In this document: positions 1-39,286 of the stretch, in pieces
Layout: each line of letters begins with the position of its first letter
Position numbering within the stretch: position 1 is the stretch's first letter
Assembly (NCBI GenBank): GCA_016946835.1
Contig: JACVTC010000123.1
Span: forward strand, 90,001 to 154,000
DNA length: 64,000 nt
Source of the DNA: Neocallimastix lanati (nom. inval.)
Taxonomy: Eukaryota > Neocallimastigomycota > Neocallimastigomycetes > Neocallimastigales > Neocallimastigaceae
Reading direction: 5' to 3'
Notes under the pieces: generated by a model
The model's database searches: none
The model's input: only the letters and a program-made list of their open reading frames with translations
Told to the model about the DNA's origin: nothing
Program-made: the position numbers and the translations under genes

Positions 1-3000
1 CTGAAGAATTATTCTCTACTTTTGTTTTTGATAAAGATGAAGAAGAAGAATTATTAAAAGATTTCGAAAAAGAGATTGGAGGTGCCATTCATTTTGAAGA
101 TATTAGATATAAAACTCCAAACCCTGCAAATAATAATGTTAATGCTAATCCAACCTATGAAAAAATAAACACTGAAGAATTCAATTCAGGTGTTAATGGT
201 GATATTAATAGTTTTAATGCTATTAGTACTAAGGAACTAGATTCAAAAATTGAAATTGAAAATGATAAACCAAACCAAGCTGCTAAAACTAACAACAGTG
301 CTACTAATGAAGCAATTAATATTATTACTAGAACAGATTTAGAAAGTGAAGATGACTTATCAATAGGTAATTTAATATATAATATTAAATTTAATTGTTA
401 ATATAAATTTATTGTAATAATATAATAATATAATAATAATGTAATAATTATAATAAAAAAAAAATGTAGTGGAAAAATATATTTATATATAAAGGATAAT
501 TGTATAATTAAAATATAAAATTTATAAATAATATAATATTTAGTTAAAAGGCATAAGAGAGCTTTAACTCCATATAACCAATTTATGAAGCAAGAAATCA
601 CAAAAATTAAGGCCAAACAACCAAATATTACTCACAAGGCTGCTTTCACGGAAGCTGCTCAAAGAGTAAGTGATAATATGAATTTATTTAAAAAAAAATA
701 AGATAATAAAGTGACAAAAAATGAGAAAAATATATTAATAATTTTTATAATATTTTAAAATTATAGTGGAAGATTTCTCTAAATAATCCAAAGAACAATA
801 GTATTAATGAAGCAATTAATATTATTAGTAATAAAGATTTAGAAAGTGAAGATGATTTATTAATAGGTAATTTAATCTTTAATATTAAATTTAATTATTA
901 ATGTAAATTTATTGTAATAATGGAATAATAGTAAAAAAAAAAAAAAGTTGTATAATTTAAAAATAAAAATAAATGTTTTATAAATATATATTTTTTATAA
1001 AAATATTGTGTAATGGATAAATATATTTATATTTAAAGGATGTTTGTATAATTAAAATATAATTTTTATAAATAATATAATATTTAGTTAATAAGCCAAA
1101 GAGAGCTTTAACTCCATATAACCAATTTATGAAGCAAGAACTCACAAAAATTAAGGCGGAACAACCAAATATTACTCACAAGGCTGCTTTCACGGAAGCT
1201 GCTCAAAGAGTAAGTGATAATAAGAATTTATTTGAAAATAAAAATAAGATAATAAAGCGACAAAAAATGAGAAAAAGATATTAATAATTTTTTTAATATT
1301 TTTTAAATTAATAGTGGAAAGTTTCTCTAAATAATCCAAAGTACAACACTACTGATGAAGCAATTAATAATATTGGTAAAACTAATTTAGAAAGTGAAGA
1401 TGATTTACTAATAGGTAATTTAATATTTAATATTATGTTTAATTATTAATATAAATTTATTGTAATAATGGAATAATAGTAAAAAAAAAAAAATTGTATA
1501 GTTTAAAAATAAAAATAAATGTTTTATAAATATATATTTTTTATAAAAATATTGTATAATGGAAAAATATATTTAAAGGATATTTGTATAATTAAAATAT
1601 AAAATTTATAAATAATATAATATTTAGTTAAAAAGCCAAAGAGAGCTTTAACTCCATATAACCAATTTATGAAGCAAGAACTCACAAAAATTAAGGCCAA
1701 ACAACCAAATATTACTCACAAGGCTGCTTTCACGGAAGCTGCTCAAAGAGTAAGTGATAATATGAATTTATAAAAAAAAAAAAAATAAGATAATAAAGCG
1801 ACAAAAATGAGAAAAGTATATTAATAAGTTTTATAATATTTTAAAATTAATAGTGGAAGATTTCTCTAAATAATCCAAAGAACAATACTATTAATGAAGT
1901 AATTAATATTATTTCTAAAACAGATTTAGAAAGTGTAGATGACTTATCAAGAGGTAATTTAATCTTTAATATTAAATTTAATTATTAATATGAATTTATT
2001 GTAATAATATAATAATGTAATAATATTGTAATAATGTAATAATAGAAAAAAAAATGTTATAGAAAAATATATTTATATATAAAGGATGTTTGTATAATTA
2101 AAATATAAAATTTATAAATAATATAATATTTAGTTAAAAAGCATAAGAGAGCTTTAACTCCGTATAACCAATTTATGAAGCAAGAAATCACAAAAATTAA
2201 GGCCAAACAACCAAATATTACTCATAAGGCCGCTTTCAAGGAAGCTGCTCAAAGAGTAAGTGATAATATAAATTTATTTAAAAATAAAAAAAAATTAAAA
2301 TAATAAAACGACAAAAAATGAGAAAAATATATTAATAATTTTTATAATATTTTAAAATTAATAGTGGATTGTTTCTCTAAATAATTCAAAGAACAATGCT
2401 TTTGATAAAGCAATTAATATTATTAATAAAACAGATTTAGAAAGTGAAGATGACTTATCAGGAGGTAATTTAATATTTAATAATAAATTCAATTATTAGT
2501 ATATAATTATTGTAATAATGTAATAGTATTATAATATAATAATAATAAAAAAAAATGTAGTGGAAAAATATATTTATATTTAAAGGATGTTTGTATAATT
2601 AAAATATAATATTTATAAATAATATAATATTTAGTTAAAAAGCATAAGAGAGCTTTAACTCCATATAACCAATTTTTGAAGCAAGAACTCACAAAAATTA
2701 AAGCGGAACAACCAAATATTACTCATAAGGCTGCTTTCACAGAAGCTGCTCAAAGAGTAAGTGATAATATGAATTTATTTGAAAATAAAAATAAGATATT
2801 AAAATGACAAAAAATGAGAAAAATATATTAATATTTTTTATAATATTTTAAAATTAATAGTGGAAGGTTTCTCTAAATAATCCAAAGAACAATAGTATTG
2901 ATGAAGCAATTAATAATATTTCTAGAACAGATTTAGAAAGTGAAGATGACTTATCAAGAGGTAATTTAATATTTAATATTAAATTTAATTATTAGAATAT

Positions 3001-6000
3001 AATTATTGTAATAATGTAATAATATTATAATAAAATAATAATAAAAAAAAAAAAAAAAAAAAGAATTTAGTGGAAAAATATATTTATATTTAAAATTTGT
3101 TTGTATAATTAAAATATAAAATTTATAAATAATATAATATTTAGTTAAAAGGCAAAAGAGAGCTTTAACTCCATATAACCAATTTATGAAGCAAGAAATC
3201 ACAAAAATTAAGGCCAAACAACCAAATATTACTCACAAGGCTGCTTTCAAGGAAGCTGCTCAAAGAGTAAGTGATAATATGAATTTATTTGAAAATAAAA
3301 ATAAGATAATAAAGCGACAAAAAATGAGAAAAATATATTAATAAAATTTATAATATTTTAAAATTGATAGTGGATGATTTCTCTAAATAATCCAAAGAAA
3401 AATACTACTAATGGAGCAATTAATATTATCACTAAAATAGGTTTAGAAAGTGAAGATGAATTATCAAGAGGTAATTTAATCTTTAATATTAAATTTAATT
3501 ATTAATATAAATTTATTGTAATATTGTAATAATAATAAGACAAAACAAAACAAAACAAAACAAAACAAAACAAAAAAAAACAAAAAAAAAAAAAATGTTG
3601 TGAAAAAATATATTTATATATAAAAGATAATTGTATAATTAAAATATAATATTTATAATTAATATAATATTTATAATATTTAGTTAAAAAGCATAAGAGA
3701 GCTTTAACTCCATATAACCAATTTATGAAGCAAGAAATCACAAAAATTAAAGCAGAACAACCAAATATTACTCACAAGGCCGCTTTCACAGAAGCTGCTC
3801 AAAGAGTAAGTGATAATAAGAATTTATTTTAAAATAAAAATAAGATAATAAAACGACAAAAAATGAGAAAAATATATTAATATTTTTTATAATATTTTAA
3901 AATTAATAGTGGATGGTTTCTCTAAATAATCCAAAGAACAATACTACTAATGGAGCAATTAATAGTATTACTAGTACAGGTTTAGAAAGTGAGGATGATT
4001 TATCAAGAGGTAATTTAATATTTAGTATTAAATTTAATTATAATATAAAATTATTGTAATAATGTAATAATAATATAATAATATAATAATAATAATAATA
4101 AATGTAGTGGAAAAATATATTTATATATAAAGGATGATTAAATAATTAAAATATAAATTTAATAAATAATATGATGTTTAGTTAAAAAGCCAAAGAGAGC
4201 TTTAACTCCATATAACCAATTTTTGAAGCAAGAAATCACAAAAATTAAGGCCAAACAACCAAATATTACTCACAAGGCTGCTTTCACGGAAGCTGCTCAA
4301 AGAGTAAGTGATAATAAGAATTTATTTGAAAATAAAAATAAGATAATAAAGCGACAAAAAATGAGAAAAATATATTAATAATAATTTTTAAAATATATTT
4401 TAAAATAAATAGTGGATGATTTCTCTAAATAATCCAAAGAACAATAGTATTGATAAAGCAATTAATATGATTAATAATACAGGTTTAGAAAGTGAAAATG
4501 ATTTATTAATAGGTAATTTAATATTTAATATTAGATTTAATTATTAATATAAATTTATTGTAATAATGTGATATATTGTAATAATATGATAATAGTGAAA
4601 AAAAAAAAAAAAATGTAAAATTTAAAAATAAAAATAAATGTTTTATAAATATATATTTTTTATAAAATATTGTATAATGGAAAAATATATTTATATTTAA
4701 AGGATATTTGTATAATTAAAATATAATATTTATAAATAATATAATATTTAGTTAAAAAACAAAAGAGAGCTTTAACTCCATACAATCAATTTATGAAGCA
4801 AGAAATTACAAAAATTAAGGCGGAACAACCAAATATTACTCATAAGGCTGCTTTCACAGAAGCTGCTCAAAGAGTAAGTGATAATAAGAATTTATTTGAA
4901 AATAAAAATAAGATAATAAAGCGACAAAAAATGAGAAAAATATATTAATAATTTTTATAATATTTTAAATTTAATAGTGGATGGTTTCTCTAAATAATCC
5001 AAAGAACAATAGTGTTAATAAATCAATTAATATTATTACTAATACAGGTTTAGAAAGTGAAGATGATTTATTAAGAGGTAATTTAATATTTAATTATATA
5101 TTAAATTTAATTATAATATAAATTTATTATAATAATGTAATAATATAATAATATTGTAATAATATGATAATAGTGAAATAAAAAAAAAAAAAAAAAAAGT
5201 TGTATAGTTTAAAAATAAAAATAAATGTTTTATAAATATATATTTTATATAAAAATATTGTATAATGGAAAAATATATTTATATATAAAAGATAAATGTA
5301 TAATTAAAATATAAAATTTGTAAATGATATAATATATAGTTAAAAAGCATAAGAGAGCTTTAACTTCATACAACCAATTTATGAAACAAGAACTCACAAA
5401 AATTAAGGCGGAACAACCAAATATTACTCATAAGGCTGCTTTCACAGAAGCTGCTCAAAGAGTAAGTGATAATAAGAATTTATTTGAAAATAAAAATAAG
5501 ATAATAAAGCGACAAAAAATGAGAAAAAGATATTAATAATTTTTTTAATATTTTTTAAATTAATAGTGGAAGGTTTCTTTAAATAATCCAAAGAACAATA
5601 GTATTGATGAAGCAATTAATAATATTTCTAAAACTAATTTAGAAAGTGAAGATGACTTATCAAGAGGTAATTTAATATTTAATATTAAATTTAATTGTTA
5701 ATATAAATTTATTGTAATAATGTAATAATAGTAAAAACAAAAACAAAAAACAAAAAACAAAAACAAAAACAAAAAAAACAAAAAAAACAAAAAAAAAAAA
5801 TTGTATAGTTTAAAAATAAAAATAAATGTTTTATATATATATTTTTTATATATATTTTTTTTAAAAATATTGTATAATGGAAAAATATATTTATATTTAA
5901 AGGATGTTTGTATAATTAAAATATAATATTTATAAATAATATAATATTTAGTTAAAAAGCCAAAGAGAGCTTTAACTCCATACAATCATTTTATGAATCA

Positions 6001-6216
6001 AGAACTCCAAAAAATTAAGGCAGAACAACCTAATATTACTCACAAGGCTGCTTTCACAGAAGCTGCTCAAAGAGTAAGTTATAATATGAATTTATTTGAA
6101 AATAAAAATAAGTTAATAAAGCGACAAAAAATGAGAAAAATATATTAATAATTTTTATAATATTTTAAATTTAATAGTGGAAAGTTTCTCCAGATAATCC
6201 AAAGAATAAATCTTAA
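1..6216 (+). CDS. SYAP1-like acidic region fused to eleven YABBY/HMG-like repeats (5' end outside window)
   Basis: The first exon in view (1-366) encodes an acidic, Asn/Ser-rich stretch (EEELLKDFEKEIG and following). It is colinear without gaps with exon 5 of the SYAP1-like gene downstream (11842-12207, 366 bp each, about nine of ten bases identical by eye). So the missing 5' part probably encodes the SYAP1 BSD domain; that is inference. It then splices, phase 1, into eleven two-exon cassettes. Exon A encodes a KPKRALTPYNQFMKQEL type motif continuing to FTEAAQR, and exon B starts WKVSLNNPKN. This matches the two-helix YABBY/HMG-box motif that binds DNA in plant YABBY and fungal HMG proteins. 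The last exon B is shorter and ends WKVSPDNPKNKS-stop at 6214-6216. About 914 residues lie in the window with no stop or frameshift. Likely a nuclear DNA-binding protein, but the function of the fusion is unknown. Confidence 0.8.
544..6216 (+). repeat. Tandem array of eleven HMG-like exon cassettes
   Basis: Exon A/exon B pairs: 544-665/767-866; 1088-1209/1315-1414; 1628-1749/1854-1953; 2134-2255/2365-2464; 2635-2756/2861-2960; 3145-3266/3371-3470; 3684-3805/3910-4009; 4182-4303/4413-4512; 4752-4873/4978-5077; 5340-5461/5567-5666; 5952-6073/6178-6216. Unit spacing is 498-612 bp. Every exon A is 122 bp and every full exon B 100 bp, so one cassette is 222 bp (74 codons) and phase-symmetric (1-1). 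Donors are GTAAGT after exon A (GTAAGT also in unit 11) and GTAATT after exon B; acceptors are TAG. Length differences between units lie only in introns. Variation is mosaic at a few residues: KRHK/KKPK/KKQK, QEI/QEL, KAK/KAE, FTE/FKE. Confidence 0.93.
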
Positions 6217-6806
6217 TTGATGAGTGCCATAGTATAAGCCATAATTAAATTTGAATTTTTTTTTTTATTTCCATTTTGTATGTAAATTCATAAAAAGGAA
6301 GTAAATGTTTTGAATGAATTATTATTTTTTATCAATAGACGTTATTTTTTTCGCATTTAAAGATAATATATAATATGTAACGTTACTACACTTAATTTTT
6401 AGAAATATTATTTAAAACCGCTACTATTTTATCATTTATATACAATATAAATGTTTAAATTTTTAATATTAAATTATAAAAAGTTAAATATTAATATTTC
6501 ATAAAATATTATACCATTTTTTAAAATTTTTGAAAAGTTATTAATGAATTAATAATTAATAAGTTTTCTTTTTTTTTTTTTTTATTTTAATTTTTATTAT
6601 TTTTATTATTATTTTTTTTATTCTAAGTTAAAATAATATAAAATAAAATATATTAAATGTTTTATTATCAAAAAACAATTATTAATAAAAAAAATTTAAA
6701 AAAAAAAAAAAAGTTATTTGTTTTTAGATTTATTTTAGTGTATTGTAAAGTTTGATGTTTATAAATGAACAATATATTTATAAAATTTATTCAATTTAGG
6801 GAAGAT
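6217..6806. other. 3' flank of the HMG-array gene, no gene seen
   Basis: AT-rich DNA with T-runs. No open frame or splice-consistent exon was seen. It ends in the target site into which the LINE inserted. Confidence 0.6.
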
Positions 6807-6821
6807 CTTTGGAGAGATTTT
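6807..6821. repeat. Target-site duplication, left copy (LINE)
   Basis: CTTTGGAGAGATTTT is repeated exactly at 9225-9239, directly after the poly(A) tail of the element. This defines the insertion boundaries. Confidence 0.95.
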
Positions 6822-9041
6822 CCATGCTTTAAGGAATATTAGTCTTAGATCCTCTACCTGGAATATTAACGATTCCATTACGATTGACGATATTAAAAAA
6901 ACAATTTCATCTATGAAAAACAACAAAGCACCCGGCCCCGATGGTATCCCGATTGAATTCTACAAAGCTCTGTTTTGCAATGAAGAATTACTAGAAACAC
7001 ATCCTGCTGCTGGAAAGTGTCTTAAATTGATTTTTAATAAAATATGGAATGGGTCTTTTCCTAAAAAATGGAACTCAGCTTCTATTGTATCAATCCCTAA
7101 GAAAGGTGACCTATCAGATTGTAGTAATTATCAAGGTATTTCTCTCATTAATGTTGGACTGAAAATCATTTCAAAAATTGTAACAGATAGAATATCTTCT
7201 TACGCACTCTCACACAATTTCATTAGACCTGAACAATTTGGCTTTCGCAACCGTTAAGAATGCATTAGTTTATTCATTTCCGTTAGAGAAATATGCCAAA
7301 GAAGAAAATTTCAAGGAAAATTCACATATTTAGCCTTTTTAGATCTTAAAAAAGCTTATGATTCAGTTCCTATTTTTAACATTCTTACTAAATTATATCA
7401 TTATGGCGTACGTGGTAAATGTTTTGATTTTCTTTGTAATTTATATACTTCATCTAAAGCTCGTGCTCGATTTGCTTCAATGTTATCAAATGAATTTCCT
7501 ATTAAAAGAGGTGTTCGTCAAGGTTGTCCATTATCTCCAATTTTATTCAATTTATTCATCAATGATATATTAAATGACTGTGAAAAGTATGGTGTTAATA
7601 TTGGAAGAAAAAAGTGTTGTGGTGGACTCTTTGCTGATGATGTTGTTCTCATTGCTCCAAGTGCAAAAAATTTAGAAAAATTACTAAAAAAGGTACATAA
7701 ATGGGCTAATTTAAATGAAATGACTTTTGGTATTGAAAAATGTGCAACTATGGTTATAAAACCAATGAACTTCCAATCTCCTCCAAACTATAGTGACCCA
7801 ACCTTCTATTTAGGAATGAATGCTATTCCTAAAGTTTCTAGTTATATTTATCTTGGTATTCCTTTTTCTGATGATCTCTTACTAGAACACATTATATCTC
7901 ACATGCATTTTAAAGTTAGAAAATCCCTTCTTTCATTTACACATTTCTTCTCAAATAAACTTATCCCTATTGCATACAAGAAAAAAGTTCTTCAATCCTT
8001 TGTTATTAGTAAAGTAATTTATTATTCTCCTTTACTTGGTTCAAACAAATCCAGAACGGCCAGAATTCAAGCATTAATTAATACTGGTCTATTTTGGTGT
8101 ATCGGCTCCTTCTCTAAAAATGGTAAAACAAGTTCAGAAGACAATTACTATATTAGACATAATTCTACTATGAGTACTTATGCTTTATCTCGAGATCTAA
8201 GCATCCCTCCTATTGCTGGTATCTGCGCAGCCTTACAAATTAAATAAATCATTTGCAAAATGGAGTAAATCAAACTGTATTATAAAGGATCTTATTAAAT
8301 CTATTCCCAAAATGCATCATTATTCCTGGACTAAAGAATCTAGAACACTGTATAAAAAAATCAAAAAATATAAATGTGAAAAATATGACGATATTTTAGA
8401 ACGTTACTGGAAATCAGTTGCCAAATTTCAAGGTATTAAAGGTCAAAATTACGATCGTAATAAGTTCTCAAACAATAAAGCTATAATTATGCTTAGTTTA
8501 AAATATCCCCAATTCAACTTAGGGTTTTCGTGGATTATTCGTTTACGCTGTGGTTATAAATACAATACTACTATTGCTATTAGAATGGGTAGAGTTTCAG
8601 AAGATTGTCCCAAGTATTGCCCCTGTTGTGGCGAAGATAAACAATCTTTTGAACATTGGATTTTTAAATGCGATGCTCTTGCATCTTTTAGATGGAATTC
8701 TTTAAATTTCATCGATGATCTCTATGTTTTATTCCTTAGGAAGATTAGAGTGTTTAATCCTCTTTCTTCCTATGACTATCATTAGTAGTTCGTTTGAGCT
8801 ATTATTTGATAGGTATTGCAAAATACCAAACTTATCCAAGAGCGTCGACATCGTACTGATAAGGCATAATGATAATACAGGATCGTCATCTATTGCTACG
8901 AAGGATGAATCTCTCCCTAGTAGTTCAATAAATGATGAGTCCGGGGAGAGTTTAGTGGACACCACACTATCTATTTTAAAGATGTTACTTCTAGGTTTTA
9001 TTTCTTTTTTATTTGATAGGAAGGGAAAAATTCCCGCATAG
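6822..9041 (+). pseudogene. LINE reverse transcriptase, disabled
   Basis: RT motifs are in order: NNKAPGPDGIPIEFYK, the finger segment YQGISLINVGLKIISK, motif A LDLKKAYDSVP, motif B RGVRQGCPLSPILFN, and the catalytic FADD motif in GGLFADDVVLIAP. They are followed by a C-terminal zinc motif CPKYCPCCGEDKQSFEHW..KC (8608-8672 region), as in many fungal and animal LINEs. It is broken by an in-frame TAA at 7255-7257 (a Glu codon by context). A frameshift lies near 8219-8245 and another near 8740-8785. The tail runs to a stop at 9039-9041. The clade (Tad-like or other) cannot be settled by eye. Confidence 0.92.
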
Positions 9042-9189
9042 TACAACTTGCCGAAATACATAGTATTTTTGAGCTTTTTTATTTTTTTATTTTTTAATTT
9101 TTTATTTTTAATTTCAAATGTACTTTTCACCTACATGTATTTTTTAAAATAAAATTTAATAAAGTTTTGGAAGTGTATTCTCTTCCCTG

Positions 9190-9224
<35 letters not shown>
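6822..9224 (+). mobile_element. 5'-truncated non-LTR retrotransposon (LINE)
   Basis: The element runs from a point inside the reverse transcriptase to a poly(A) tail of about 32 A (9193-9224). It is flanked by a perfect 15-bp target-site duplication, the hallmark of target-primed reverse transcription. Base composition is clearly richer in G+C than the flanks. The endonuclease and N-terminal RT segments are absent, consistent with 5' truncation on insertion. The 3' UTR ends CTCTTCCCTGTCT followed by A's. The same 13-base end recurs at 29355-29367, and a diverged version is found on the minus strand near 62919-62965. Confidence 0.95.
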
Positions 9225-10539: not shown

Positions 10540-11524
10540 ATGGCAAGCTTTTTTAAAAAAAATTTCAAATTACCAAAACTCGATAATATAGAAAATTATG
10601 CTAAGAAAATTATGACAACAATCGATGAACAAGCTAAAAATATTGTTAATGAAATCAAAAATGAGGATAATAAAAGTAAAAAAGGTCAATCACTAGAAGA
10701 ACGTAAGTTAACAAATATAGAATAAAAATATAAAAGTTAACTTAAAATAAAAATAAATTTGAACTTAAAATTGGATTGATGAATAAAAAATATATACATA
10801 TATATATATATATGTGAAAGATTATTATTAATGAAATCAGAGTATAATTATCTTCTTTTTTTTTTTTTTTTTTTTTTTTTTAATGATAAAGTTTATTAAT
10901 GTAATTCAATTATATTCAGTTATTAAGGATTTTTTTTATTAATGTTTAATTTTAATTTAGAATTTCCTTATCCATGGAGTGATGAAATTGATGAAGAAAC
11001 CGTAAAAAATGCAATTGTTGCGTTGTCTTTGGTAAATTTTATTAAATTAATATAAGTTGTTACAATTAAATTATTTATAAAATTTCTTAATTTCTTAATT
11101 TCTTAATTTATTATTTAAATATAAATATTATTATTTTTATATTAGGATAATAGAAATTTCTTAATATCTCCCGGTGAAAACTTCGATTTCAATTTAAATG
11201 ATAATCTTCATTATGCTATTGTATGTATTTATAATACTCTTAATATATATATATAAACTTATTTAGGTTTTAATATTTAAGTATTAAACTCTTCATAGAT
11301 ATTAATATTAATTATTTCTATATTTATTATTATATAATAATTAAATATAATTTATTTATTCATTTAATATTCTTTATAATTTAATTATATATATTATAAA
11401 AGAATCTTTTAAAATTTGATAAACGTTTAGAAACTCTTCGTTATAATATTGTTCCAAAACAAATAAAAGAAGATGAATTTTGGAAAAATTATGTAAAAAT
11501 TACAATATAATTTTAATTAAAATC

Positions 11525-11566
<42 letters not shown>

Positions 11567-12408
11567 TAATTTAATAGTTAATTCATTAATAGTAGTATTA
11601 TATAATTTAACTTTTAATTTATAAATCACACAACACTTTTTTTCTAATATATATCAAATTTCTTAATCAAATTATGTTAATGTATATAATAATAAATATT
11701 TTAATTAAAAATTAAAAAATTAATAGTTCTATAGAATATCATTAATTAAATCTGGACAAGATATTAAAACATTACCAGATATATTCTTACCAGAAGAAAT
11801 ACCAAAAGCTGAAGAACCAGAAGAACTTAAGAAAAAAGCTACTGAAGAATTATTCTCTACTGATGTTTTTGATAAAGATGAAGAAGAAGAATTATTAAAA
11901 GATTTCGAAAAAGAGATTGGAGATGCTATTCGTTTAGAAGATATTAAATATGAAACTCCAAATACTACAAATGATAATGTTAATACTAATCCAACCAGTG
12001 AAAAAATAAACACTGAGGAATTCAATTCAAGTGTTAATGGTGATATTGATAGTCTTGATGCTATTAGTACCGAGGAACTAGGTACAAAAATTGAAATTGA
12101 AAATGATAAACCAAACCAAGCTGCTAAAACTAATAACAGTACTACTAATGAAGCAATTAATATTATTACTAAAACAGATTTAGAAAGTGAAGATGACTTA
12201 TCAATAGGTAATTTAATATATAATATTAAATTTAATTGTTAATATAAATTTATTGTAATAATGTAATAATAGTAAAAAAAAAAAAAGTTGTATAATTAAG
12301 TAATAATAAATGTTGTATAAATATATATTTTTTAAAATATTATATTATCTTTTAATAGATGAAACCATGAAAGAATTAGAAAATACATTAAAAAAAACAA
12401 CTGTATAG
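10540..12408 (+). CDS. SYAP1: SYAP1-like BSD-domain protein, complete, 6 exons
   Basis: Exons 10540-10702, 10961-11031, 11146-11220, 11403-11492, 11727-12207, 12359-12408; about 308 residues. The N-terminus (MASFFKKNFKLPKL) resembles an amphipathic lead. It is followed by FPYPWSDEIDEETVKNAI, then the SYAP1 signature ALSLDNRNFLISP and the BSD motif around LRYNIVPKQIKEDEFWKNYF. In animals SYAP1 is a cytoplasmic/perinuclear protein linked to Akt (TORC2) signalling; a role in fungi is inference. The C-terminal half is acidic and low-complexity with a probable coiled coil (DKDEEEELLKDFEKEI). Exon 5 and the first part of intron 5 are duplicated at the left window edge, where the gene continues into the HMG-like array instead of the short last exon used here (DETMKELENTLKK). 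Confidence 0.85.
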
Positions 12409-20762: not shown

Positions 20763-22099
20763 TCAATGATTATATTTTTTGGTTAGAAATATTGATAGAC
20801 TAACAATATTGATCGCCAATATATATAATGGAATAAATCCATAGTCACTCTTAAAATGAATATCAGTTCCATGCTCTAGTAAATATTTTGCAATATCTTC
20901 ATCTTTATTTCTATTAGCAATTGTTAATGGAGTATCCCCTTTTTTGTTTTTTACATTAACATTTGCTCCATGTTCAACAAAATATTTTATAATTTTTTTA
21001 TTTTCTTTTTGGCAGGCTATAATTAATGGTATATTTTTATTTCTATCATGTTGGTTAACATCTGCTCCATGTTCAACCAAATATTCCATTAGATATTGAT
21101 CCTCCTTTTGACATACCTTTATTAATGGTGTATATCCATCCATACTTTTTTTATTTAAATCCGCTCCTAAATCAATTAAACACGTAGTAACATCAAATCT
21201 ATTATGTATAGCTATGGTATATTCAGAGGTCAGTGAAAAAATCAATGGAGTATCAATCCCTTTATACTTGCCACACTTATTTATATCAGCACCATGATCC
21301 ACTAATATTTTTATAATTTTTGTATTTCCTTTGAAATAAGCATGATGTAGAGGTGTCCAACCCCACCCGTCAGTCTTATTGATATCGACTCCAAGTTCAA
21401 TCAAATATTCTGCTATAGTACCAAAATTGATGGATAATGCATAAGTTAGTGGGGTTTTACTGAGATATATTTTATTTATCAAGTCCATGGTCAATTAAAC
21501 ATTTAATAAGACGTTTATTACAACTATCACAAGCAATACTAATTGGATGATCACCATACTTATTAATAATGTCAAATTTTTGCACCTTTTTTAACTAAAC
21601 ATTTAATTAATTCTTCATTGTTCTTTTTACAACTAACAATAAAAAGGTGTATCCCCCGACCTTTCTTCAATATCATTCACGTTACTACCATGGTCAATAA
21701 GAAATTTTACTATAGATATATTACTTACTTTACAAGCAACAATTAATGGTGTATTACCAGATTTATTTTTAAAATTAACATCTGCTCCTTTTTCAACAAG
21801 ATATTTTATCATATTTTCATTTTTTTCACAACATACCTTAAATAAGGATGAATATCCATATTTATCTTTTTTTTCACTTCCGCCCTATTTTCAATTAAAT
21901 ATTTTATCCCTGGTTCATTGTTTTTTTCACACATTATTATTAAGGGTGTTTCGTTATAATCATTGCTTGTATTTATATTTGCTCCTGCTTCTACTAAATA
22001 TTTAATTTTGTCAATATTATTATTTTTACAAGTAATAATTAAAGGAGTATTTCCTTCTTTATCCTTTTTATTCATATCTATTAAATTACTATTACTCAT
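20763..22099 (-). pseudogene. Ankyrin-repeat protein with four frameshifts
   Basis: Starting from MSNSNLIDMNKKDKEG on the minus strand, about thirteen 33-residue ankyrin repeats of the GNTPLIxACKxxN...KYLVExGADVN pattern can be followed to a stop at 20763. The frame breaks at the A-run near 21868-21875, near 21640-21650, near 21580-21590 and near 21480-21500. Both outer parts remain long and clean: about 83 residues before the first break and about 243 after the last. Small ankyrin-only proteins act as protein-binding scaffolds and form a large, rapidly changing family in this kind of genome. Either a recent pseudogene or uncorrected indels in the sequence. No intron was needed. Confidence 0.8.
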
Positions 22100-27478: not shown

Positions 27479-28560
27479 TGTAAAAAAAATATTAGTGAGA
27501 AATTAAAAAGTTTTTAATTTTTTTTTTTTATATAATGTTATTGTATGTTAGAAGAAATTCATATATCAAATATTTAATATTTTTTATAAATATAAAGAAC
27601 AAAAAATAATGAGCTATAAACTATAAACTATAATATAAAATATCAAATATAAAAATATAAAATATAAAATATAAATTTATAAAATATTTATAAAATATAA
27701 AATTTAAAATATAAAGTATAAAATATAAAATATAAAATATAAAATATAAAATATAAAATTATTAAATATTAAATATAGAATATAAAATATAAAATAATAA
27801 AATATAAATAATAAAATATAAAATATAAAATAATAAAATATAAAATATAAATTATAAAATATAAAATATAAAATATAAATTATAAAATATAAAATTTAAA
27901 ATATAAAATATAAAATATAAAATAATAAAATATAAAATATAAAATATAAAATATAAACTAATAAAATATAAAATATAAAATATGAAATATTAAATTTAAA
28001 TATGGAATATAAAATATAAAATATAAAATATAAAATATAAAATATAAGATATAAAATATAAAATAAAATATATAATATATAAAATATAATAAATATATGT
28101 AAAAAAAAAGATCAGTGAGAAATCAAATAATGTTTTTAATTTTTTTTTTTATATAATGTTATTGAAATTTTGAAGAATTCATATATCAAATATTTAATAT
28201 TTTTTATAAATATAAAAAACAAAAAATAATGAACTATAAACTATAATATAAAATAATAAAATATAAAATATAAAATAAAATATAAAATTATAAAATATTT
28301 AAAATATATAAAATTATAAAATTATAAAATATTTAAAATATATAAAATTATAAAATAAAATATAAAATATAAAATATAAAATATAAAATATAAATATAAA
28401 ATATAAATATAAAATATAAAATATAAAATATAAAATATAATATATAAAATATAAAATATAAAATATAAAATATAAAATATAAAATATATAAAATATAAAA
28501 TATTGAAATATAGAAATATAATATATAAAATATAAAATATAAAATAAAATATAAGCATTA
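27479..28560. repeat. AT minisatellite in a duplicated ~620-bp segment
   Basis: Arrays of the ATAAAATATAA type fill 27640-28090 and 28245-28555. Each array is preceded by a near-identical ~160-bp unique lead (27479-27640 and 28098-28245, sharing TTCATATATCAAATATTTAA). The whole thus looks like a tandem segmental duplication. Confidence 0.85.
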
Positions 28561-37351: not shown

Positions 37352-39286
37352 GATAAATTAGTAAATAAGTTTAATTTTTGTACTATATATGTAAATATAG
37401 TATTAATTACCTTTATCCATCCGGGGTCAGAATTTTCAATAAAGGTTACTATATCATCTTGTGTGATAGTTAATTCTTCATCTACTTGACTTTGATAATC
37501 ATATATTACCTTCGCCCGTTTTAAATTACTTAAGAATGATGTATGTCCATTATTTGAAGTAGTATAATTAGGTATGTTTGATATTGACTCTAAGTAATTC
37601 GCTGGTACTAAACCTGTTCCTGATGAACACGATACCTGATTATATATATATATATATATATTACACATTTTTGGGTTAATTTTTTTTATTATTATTATTA
37701 TGTATTAATATTTCTTACCTTAGCCCAGCCATCACCTTTATCTTTTAAATAAACATATATTAAATATTATAAATATACATTATATGGAATTAAATATAAT
37801 TGTTTGTTGAATAATATTAATTTAATATAATTATTTCTATACATTTTATATAAATGCATTTTAAAATATTACCATCTTCTATGATTGTTACTATTTCTCC
37901 AGCACGTAAATCAACTTCATCAGAATTTTGCTTCGTATAATCATAAGCAGCTTTCATTGTTAGTAAACTACTAATATTAAAATCACTTGAACTTGAAAAT
38001 GGATTGACATTATTGGTATCTTTTAAAAAATAATAATTTAATGAATAAATTTAAAAATACTTAAATAAAATAAATTCTATAATGATAACTAATTTTACCA
38101 TCATCGTCATCATCATCTTCCAAGAATGGATTTTTTGCTGAAATTGGTGATTTCATACCTTTTGTTCATTAATTTTTTTTTTTAATTAGAATTATTATAA
38201 TATTATATATATTCGTTAATTATTTTTATTTTTTAAATTTTTATTTTAAAAAATATATAATTATATACTTGAACTGGTAGTTGGAAAAGATGCTATTGTA
38301 TGTGATATTGGCAATGAAACTTAAGGAATTTATATATAAATGATAAATATAAAATATAAAATATTAATTTAGTATTATTTATATTGATTAACTAATATTA
38401 GAATTCAATATATAAATTTATGCATTATTGCTTGAATATTTAAAAATATTTATTTTAAATAGATCGTTCATAATTACTTCTTTCATTTGAACTGGCTGGT
38501 ACTGAACTAACAGAGTTAATGGAATTAATTGAAGTTCTTTTATTTTTTGGTAATTTAACTTTACCACAATTAGGGGGTACATTTAATTCACATTTTGTGT
38601 GACAGAGATAACCACATTCTCTGCATGCTAAACCTTTACCCCAGAGTGATTCTCCACAGAAAGAACATATTGTTTTGTTAATAATTTTTTTATTTTTGAA
38701 ATTATGTGGAACAATAGACGTTTCATCATAACCTATAGCTTCTGTTATAACTTTAATTTGCACTTCACATTTTAACTCTTCTAACTGCAAATGTGCAATC
38801 TCTTTTTTTGCATCGGTAAGTTTTTGTAAAGCTTCATCAGGATCGCCAAATGATGGAGTTGCTTTATAAGTTTGATACATACCGTTAATACCTTCAATTT
38901 CTTTATTTTTAGATGAAATATCATCCTTAAGAATACTTAAATTTTGTTGTAACTTTAATAAAATATTTCTAAGGAAAGTTACAGCATTATCGTCATTTGT
39001 ATATATAGCATCTTTTATTTCACCTAATGAGATAGTTGGAATTCTTTTAATTTCAGGTTGTTTCCAATCTCTTGGTTTATTATATTTAATATATAAATTA
39101 ACATCACTTGGAATATCAATTTGATTATTTCCCTCAATTACTTCTTCATTAGAGCTTTCTATATTTTGATATAATTCATTTTCACTTTCTAGATATTCAT
39201 TACAAATACTTTTATAATATTCCATAACAGATTCATGAAATTCTTGCATACTCTTTATATAATATATATATATATATTTATTTAAC

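Follow-up and report, generated by a model that had tools for sequence, protein, structure and literature searches.

The stretch of DNA analysed here, referred to as the window, comprises 64,000 nucleotides of Neocallimastix lanati, corresponding to bases 90001-154000 of contig C28 (JACVTC010000123.1) in a 199-Mb genome of 762 contigs. The genome is very AT-rich, and the GC content of 2-kb stretches ranges from 10% to 28%. The beginning of the window is occupied by a chimeric gene, here called the array gene, in which part of a BSD gene is joined to a series of YABBY/HMG-like cassettes (BSD::YABBY). The gene starts upstream of the window, which opens with the last part of an exon from a BSD gene (1-366). 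The features of the array gene and of the neighbouring intact BSD gene are listed below; P0001 and P0004 are database proteins described further on.

1..366, + strand: 3' part of a BSD1-derived exon of the penultimate type, encoding the acidic tail of a SYAP1-like protein and ending in phase 1
544, 1088, 1628, 2134, 2635, 3145, 3684, 4182, 4752, 5340 and 5952, + strand: starts of exon A, each exactly 122 bp long
544..866, + strand: cassette 1, exon A 544-665 and exon B 767-866, inside P0001
1088..1414, + strand: cassette 2, exon A 1088-1209 and exon B 1315-1414, inside P0001
1628..1953, + strand: cassette 3, exon A 1628-1749 and exon B 1854-1953, inside P0001
2134..2464, + strand: cassette 4, exon A 2134-2255 and exon B 2365-2464, inside P0001
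2635..2960, + strand: cassette 5, exon A 2635-2756 and exon B 2861-2960, inside P0001
3145..3470, + strand: cassette 6, exon A 3145-3266 and exon B 3371-3470, inside P0001
3684..4009, + strand: cassette 7, exon A 3684-3805 and exon B 3910-4009; P0001 stops in the intron after exon A7
4182..4512, + strand: cassette 8, exon A 4182-4303 and exon B 4413-4512; no RNA-type evidence
4752..5077, + strand: cassette 9, exon A 4752-4873 and exon B 4978-5077; no RNA-type evidence
5340..5666, + strand: cassette 10, exon A 5340-5461 and exon B 5567-5666; no RNA-type evidence
5952..6216, + strand: terminal cassette 11, exon A 5952-6073 and terminal exon 6178-6216; P0004 covers the junction
6217..6821, + strand: 3' flank in common with the parent Y gene (window 5862-6821 against C28:82063-83031, 91.0% over 975 columns)
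10540..12408, + strand: BSD2, an intact parent-type BSD gene downstream of the array, with six exons and 309 aa, SYAP1-like

The array consists of ten full cassettes, each made of a 122-bp and a 100-bp exon, and closes with a shorter one of 122 + 39 bp that includes the stop codon. The initial annotation, made from the letters alone, had described eleven in-frame copies of a two-exon unit within one gene, with exons of 122 and 100 bp, intact splice sites, no stop and no frameshift, and introns varying freely in length. The single gene, its eleven modules and the open frame stand, as do the sizes of eleven A and ten B exons, each of the latter exactly 100 bp; the eleventh B exon is a 39-bp terminal exon (6178-6216) that encodes WKVSPDNPKNKS and a stop and resembles exon 3 of the parent Y gene. 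All introns begin with GT and end with AG (22/22), the spliced reading frame runs from base 3 to 6216 through 914 codons without interruption before the stop, and no indel occurs in the 222 exon columns of units 1-10. Exons A and B together make up 222 bp, or 74 codons, with a phase-1 intron on either side, and because this unit is symmetric and 74 codons long, any change in copy number preserves the frame. Free variation in length is true of the B-A introns (170-285 bp) and not of the A-B introns, which are almost uniform (101-109 bp). Pairwise identity between units ranges from 86.1 to 94.8%, with means of 93.2% for exon A, 86.8% for exon B, 93.5% for the A-B intron, and 88.7% for the B-A intron. 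A longer form of the B-A intron, carrying the AAAAATAAATGTTTTATA block, is found in units 1, 2, 8, 9, and 10, while units 3-7 and the intron of exon 0 lack it; this distribution is a trace of the order of exchange. The locus is drawn from a single assembly, and near-identical repeats are difficult to assemble, yet the units are distinct at this level of identity and an independent contig carries units 1-7 with order and letters alike, making an assembly artefact extremely improbable.

That independent contig, 2,748 bases in length, encodes the 785-aa protein P0001, which consists of 171 BSD-protein residues encoded upstream of the window followed by a stretch agreeing with the splice model at 606/606 residues across 13 introns. 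The first 290 residues of P0001 are 89.3% identical to BSD2 without a gap, and its C-terminus, VSDNKNLF, is a readthrough of the intron following exon A7. As the window part of P0001 by itself takes up 3.8 kb in the genome, a contig of this size is not unspliced genomic DNA, and an RNA origin is by far the simplest explanation. In addition, P0004 (39 aa, 960-base contig, source jgi) matches the model at 39/39 residues across the last splice junction, bringing the supported junctions to 14 of 22. A spliced fusion RNA thus very probably exists. Since a 222-bp cassette between phase-1 introns can be skipped without loss of frame, the array could be speculated to act as a splicing device that varies the number of modules in the protein by skipping or selecting cassettes. 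However, P0001 runs in sequence from unit 1 through unit 6 to exon A7 without omitting any, which argues against mutually exclusive use, and we regard such a device as improbable. Two further database proteins match the reading of the window but for one residue each, P0008 (one contig, 3244 bases) in unit 6 with the following intron (3186-3338) and P0009 (21 contigs) in unit 11 with the following intron (5993-6145). These differences hint at other alleles or strains, and that of P0008 may also reflect an alternative start codon.

Both parents of the array gene lie nearby, and these, the fusion with a SYAP1-like BSD gene and the hybrid nature of exon B had escaped the initial annotation. The parent Y gene (L010:2008-2415, i.e., C28:82008-82415) is located upstream of the array and is complete, with three exons and one YABBY/HMG-like module; its product has 63 aa (MPKVAKEKKD..NPKNKS), and exon 1 contributes 31 bp of coding sequence, placing intron 1 in phase 1. 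Searching the genome with the YABBY profile gave 13 matches over the cut-off, of which 11 are in the array (every exon A copy in the window exceeds the Pfam cut-off) and the other two at C28:82158-82271 and on C739. The latter contig holds a second complete single-module Y gene (L012, C739:738001-748000), which is an older duplicate. The two Y genes are identical in the 41 residues from exon A, and because this identity persists in surroundings of ~3.1 kb that are only 69.7% identical, the single-module Y gene is strongly conserved. BSD2, in turn, scores 40.1 bits with the Pfam BSD profile (cut-off 24.6) and has 880 bp of coding sequence before its last intron (12208-12358), which is in phase 1. 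Window 1-484 is 90.2% identical to BSD2 11842-12330, and window 1-366 is ~90% identical to BSD2 exon five. The second BSD-type match of the genome, on C522, was considered as a third BSD copy and rejected, as its BSD protein is diverged (41% over 22 residues).

The seam between the two parents is visible in the introns and in exon B. In unit 1, positions 1-135 of the B-A intron match the last intron of BSD2 (90.4%), and positions 128-221, the last 94 bases, match Y intron 1 (86.3%), the two parental matches overlapping by 8 AT-rich bases; unit 8 is alike. Exon B combines the start of Y exon 3 (W..NPKN) with the BSD exon tail (EAINII..LESEDDLSI). The 3' flank of the array is that of Y, and beyond an inserted retroelement the homology resumes (81.8%, 424 columns). 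This insert (6822-9224) is a fragment of a non-LTR-type reverse transcriptase (RVT_1, 92 bits) whose frame is interrupted by TAA at 7255-7257. It carries a run of A at the 3' side and is bracketed by the 15-bp direct repeat CTTTGGAGAGATTTT, and the homologous Y flank is without this insert.

These observations suggest that Y (63 aa, three exons) and the six-exon, SYAP1-like BSD gene were once neighbours, in that order. Had a tandem duplication broken within Y intron 1 and the last BSD intron, both of phase 1, its outer parts would be the present Y and BSD2, and in the middle BSD exons 1-5 would have come to be followed by Y exons 2-3; a single such event is proposed because it accounts for the seam, the phases, and the 3' flank. 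A second duplication would then have fused Y exon 3, at a point immediately ahead of the stop codon, in frame to the BSD exon tail at a short common AAC motif, yielding the hybrid exon B and a cassette flanked by phase-1 introns, and unequal exchange would have raised the cassette number to eleven. We infer that fusion, second duplication, and amplification took place in this order. The units (86.1-94.8% identical) are about as far apart as the parental copies (90-91%), which puts amplification soon after fusion. Studies on Drosophila yakuba (PMC5460883) and on animals (PMC2926785) describe chimeric genes formed via tandem duplication, resembling the present case in that adjacent genes are fused through duplication, whereas the array gene adds a second, internal duplication that creates an amplifying exon cassette.

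In the predicted product, a BSD domain and an acidic tail would precede eleven basic two-helix modules, which are strung on mildly acidic linkers of 23 residues. The BSD domain of P0001 reaches 32.7 bits (cut-off 24.6), and the human SYAP1 structure 1x3a matches the BSD part with an E-value of 2e-17. Net charge is -2 to -5 in 10/10 linkers and +6 to +11 in the modules; the linkers had been put at about 25 residues and called acidic, which is right as to charge, if only mildly so. The module of parent Y exceeds the Pfam cut-offs for YABBY (46.5 bits, cut-off 28.6), HMG_box (32.9 bits, cut-off 25.4), and Ccdc124 (30.6 bits, cut-off 24), and seven YABBY stretches are found in P0001. P0001 also passes the Pfam cut-offs for HTH_59, DUF6661, and DUF3027, where repeats sum weak scores, and has NCBIfam matches only far below the cut-offs. 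The structural model of P0003, a 65-aa ortholog, is predicted from 13 close sequences to have two helices (22-37 and 43-55; mean pLDDT 80.4), in agreement with the two-helix YABBY/HMG-type modules proposed initially for all eleven copies; the third helix of the L-shaped HMG box is not in this predicted model. Foldseek with a low-confidence model of P0001 (mean pLDDT 45.5, pTM 0.19) gave no match at an E-value of 0.001, and its first row, at 0.71, was tandem HMG boxes.

The product is most likely a multivalent, sequence-tolerant nucleic-acid binder. Avidity would rise with module number, and the acidic linkers may moderate binding, as do the acidic tails in HMGB1 and UBF. DNA is considered the more likely target of the modules. 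Yet, in the comparison of predicted folds CCDC124/Oxs1 ties with TFAM, and as a live rival, possible if doubtful, the modules may be CCDC124/Oxs1-type two-helix domains by which the array acts on ribosomes or another RNA-protein surface and not on chromatin.

Several known systems resemble parts of the array gene. P0003, 89% identical to parent Y, and the Y genes of the genome itself have a module like those of the array but only one of them, with neither BSD domain nor linker. The BSD2 protein and the N-terminal 171 residues of P0001 resemble SYAP1-family BSD proteins; BSD2 lacks the module array, and the chimera has cassettes in place of the last BSD exon. The best Pfam match of the module is the C-terminal domain (PF04690) of plant YABBY transcription factors, and a 349-aa query covering units 7-11 had as its sole match a plant CRABS CLAW-like protein, P0002, to which parent Y is 43% identical over 60 columns. 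This plant protein has the N-terminal C2C2 zinc finger of the family (YABBY_N, PF24868), which was found neither in parent Y (E up to 1) nor in P0001 (E up to 0.001), and the array has eleven copies of the module. Tandem HMG-type modules with acidic segments, as in the array protein, occur in UBF, HMGB1, TFAM, and Abf2, UBF having about six boxes; the array modules differ in lacking the third helix and in being eleven near-identical copies derived from exon cassettes. HMGB1 and UBF1 are autoinhibited by acidic segments (PMC10250230). The GCNA family combines a two-helix HMG box with a zinc finger, a protease, and a disordered region (PMC5098910); neither a GCNA-type zinc finger nor such a protease is among the eight Pfam families of P0001, a scan that ended 5' at the start of P0001 and 3' at module 7. 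A 63-aa parent query matched 7 proteins, and a 914-aa query for a multi-module relative returned P0001 alone; this search, like that with the 349-aa query, scored only the ~8,000 candidates sharing most words and may have missed relatives. Literature searches for YABBY with Neocallimastix or YABBY domain with chytrid found nothing, which does not establish absence from print. The parts are ordinary and the route, a tandem duplication making a chimera, is known, and the architecture was not met elsewhere in the protein and literature searches, within their limits.

Whether the coding repeats are under selection was addressed with codon-based tests on units 1-10, with unit 11 excluded for its short B exon. 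The initial annotation had argued from a contrast between exons and introns, which fails, as by substitutions the introns are no more diverged than the exons; exon/intron divergence was rejected as proof of selection, the identities being equal or reversed. It had also named equal divergence, with no excess of synonymous change, as evidence against its claim; divergence is equal, and exon A has such an excess while exon B has none. When placed on the tree, the changes in exon A are 22 synonymous against 21 non-synonymous (omega 0.27, p 5e-5). A lower-bound count, which takes the fewest changes each column permits and is independent of the tree, gives 13/8 (omega 0.16-0.22, p 5e-5 to 7e-4) in 5/5 mutation models, the test having been rerun under four further rate models since the intron mutation spectrum is based on just 2 C columns. 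These codon counts indicate that module exon A is under purifying selection with an omega of about 0.2. The proposed selection on the coding repeats therefore extends to exon A and not to exon B. When substitutions were simulated for ten units with the intron spectrum, all remained free of stops in 0.4% of 5000 runs with 64 substitutions and 0.00% of 5000 with 111. About 15 exon indels would be expected in units 1-10 if rates were equal and homopolymers are ignored; the A-B introns of all 11 units, once aligned, show 7 gap patterns.

Taken as a whole, the array gene is probably a young chimera that is transcribed and spliced and encodes a multivalent, sequence-tolerant nucleic-acid binder, and a number of observations weigh against this. 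Exon B has 8 synonymous and 60 non-synonymous changes on the tree (omega 1.69, p 0.21) and 8/35 in the lower-bound count (omega 0.98-1.58, p at least 0.30, 5/5 models), and the acidic tail of BSD1 likewise appears unconstrained relative to BSD2, with 27 differences distributed 14/7/6 over the codon positions. Upstream of the window, the 5' part of the gene falls where the sequence reads N. Eight of the 22 introns have no junction evidence, among them A7-B7, which is seen unspliced, and a full-length eleven-module mRNA was not seen, P0001 ending in intron A7; the source of P0001 is unnamed, and its RNA origin is deduced from the size of its contig. Finally, the module profile has no match in the PDB at an E-value of 0.01, and Foldseek with the module model found no solved structure at E <= 0.001. 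Positive selection on the linker was rejected, as an omega of 1.69 is indistinguishable from 1, and by these codon counts linker exon B is free of constraint, with an omega of about 1. Such freedom in half of the coding length, the overall equality of exon and intron identity, and the end of the one long RNA-like contig in an unspliced intron would also be expected of a non-functional fusion relic, whose cassettes multiply unopposed by unequal exchange and whose frame is still open only because the gene is young. A relic is nonetheless rather unlikely, given the constraint on exon A in all five models, the lack of any stop in 64-111 substitutions, the exons without an indel, the conservation of every splice site, and the correct removal of 13 introns in P0001.

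Elsewhere, the window encodes, on the - strand, an ankyrin-repeat protein (20763-21494; Ank_2, 165.8 bits) and a protein with a TOCA-type HR1 plus C1 domain (38458-39285). A 940-bp array at 27615-28554 consists of about 133 copies of the 7-bp unit TATAAAA, and no Rfam family exceeds its gathering score in the window.

A span of 21 kb on a single contig keeps each stage of a new gene, namely the parents, the intron seams, the hybrid exon, and the array. Exon shuffling with subsequent amplification of a domain, usually inferred, becomes directly testable here, in the selection on the module and not the linker, as well as in the module number among isolates and its effect on binding. Eleven near-identical modules with their natural spacing also form a ready series for relating avidity to module number. 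Tentatively, the array gene may encode a polyvalent chromatin protein tunable by copy number, in which a 63-aa protein has become an in-frame cassette whose number varies by unequal exchange with the frame unbroken. If so, it would have more HMG-family modules than any protein known to us, and binding strength could evolve stepwise within a species.
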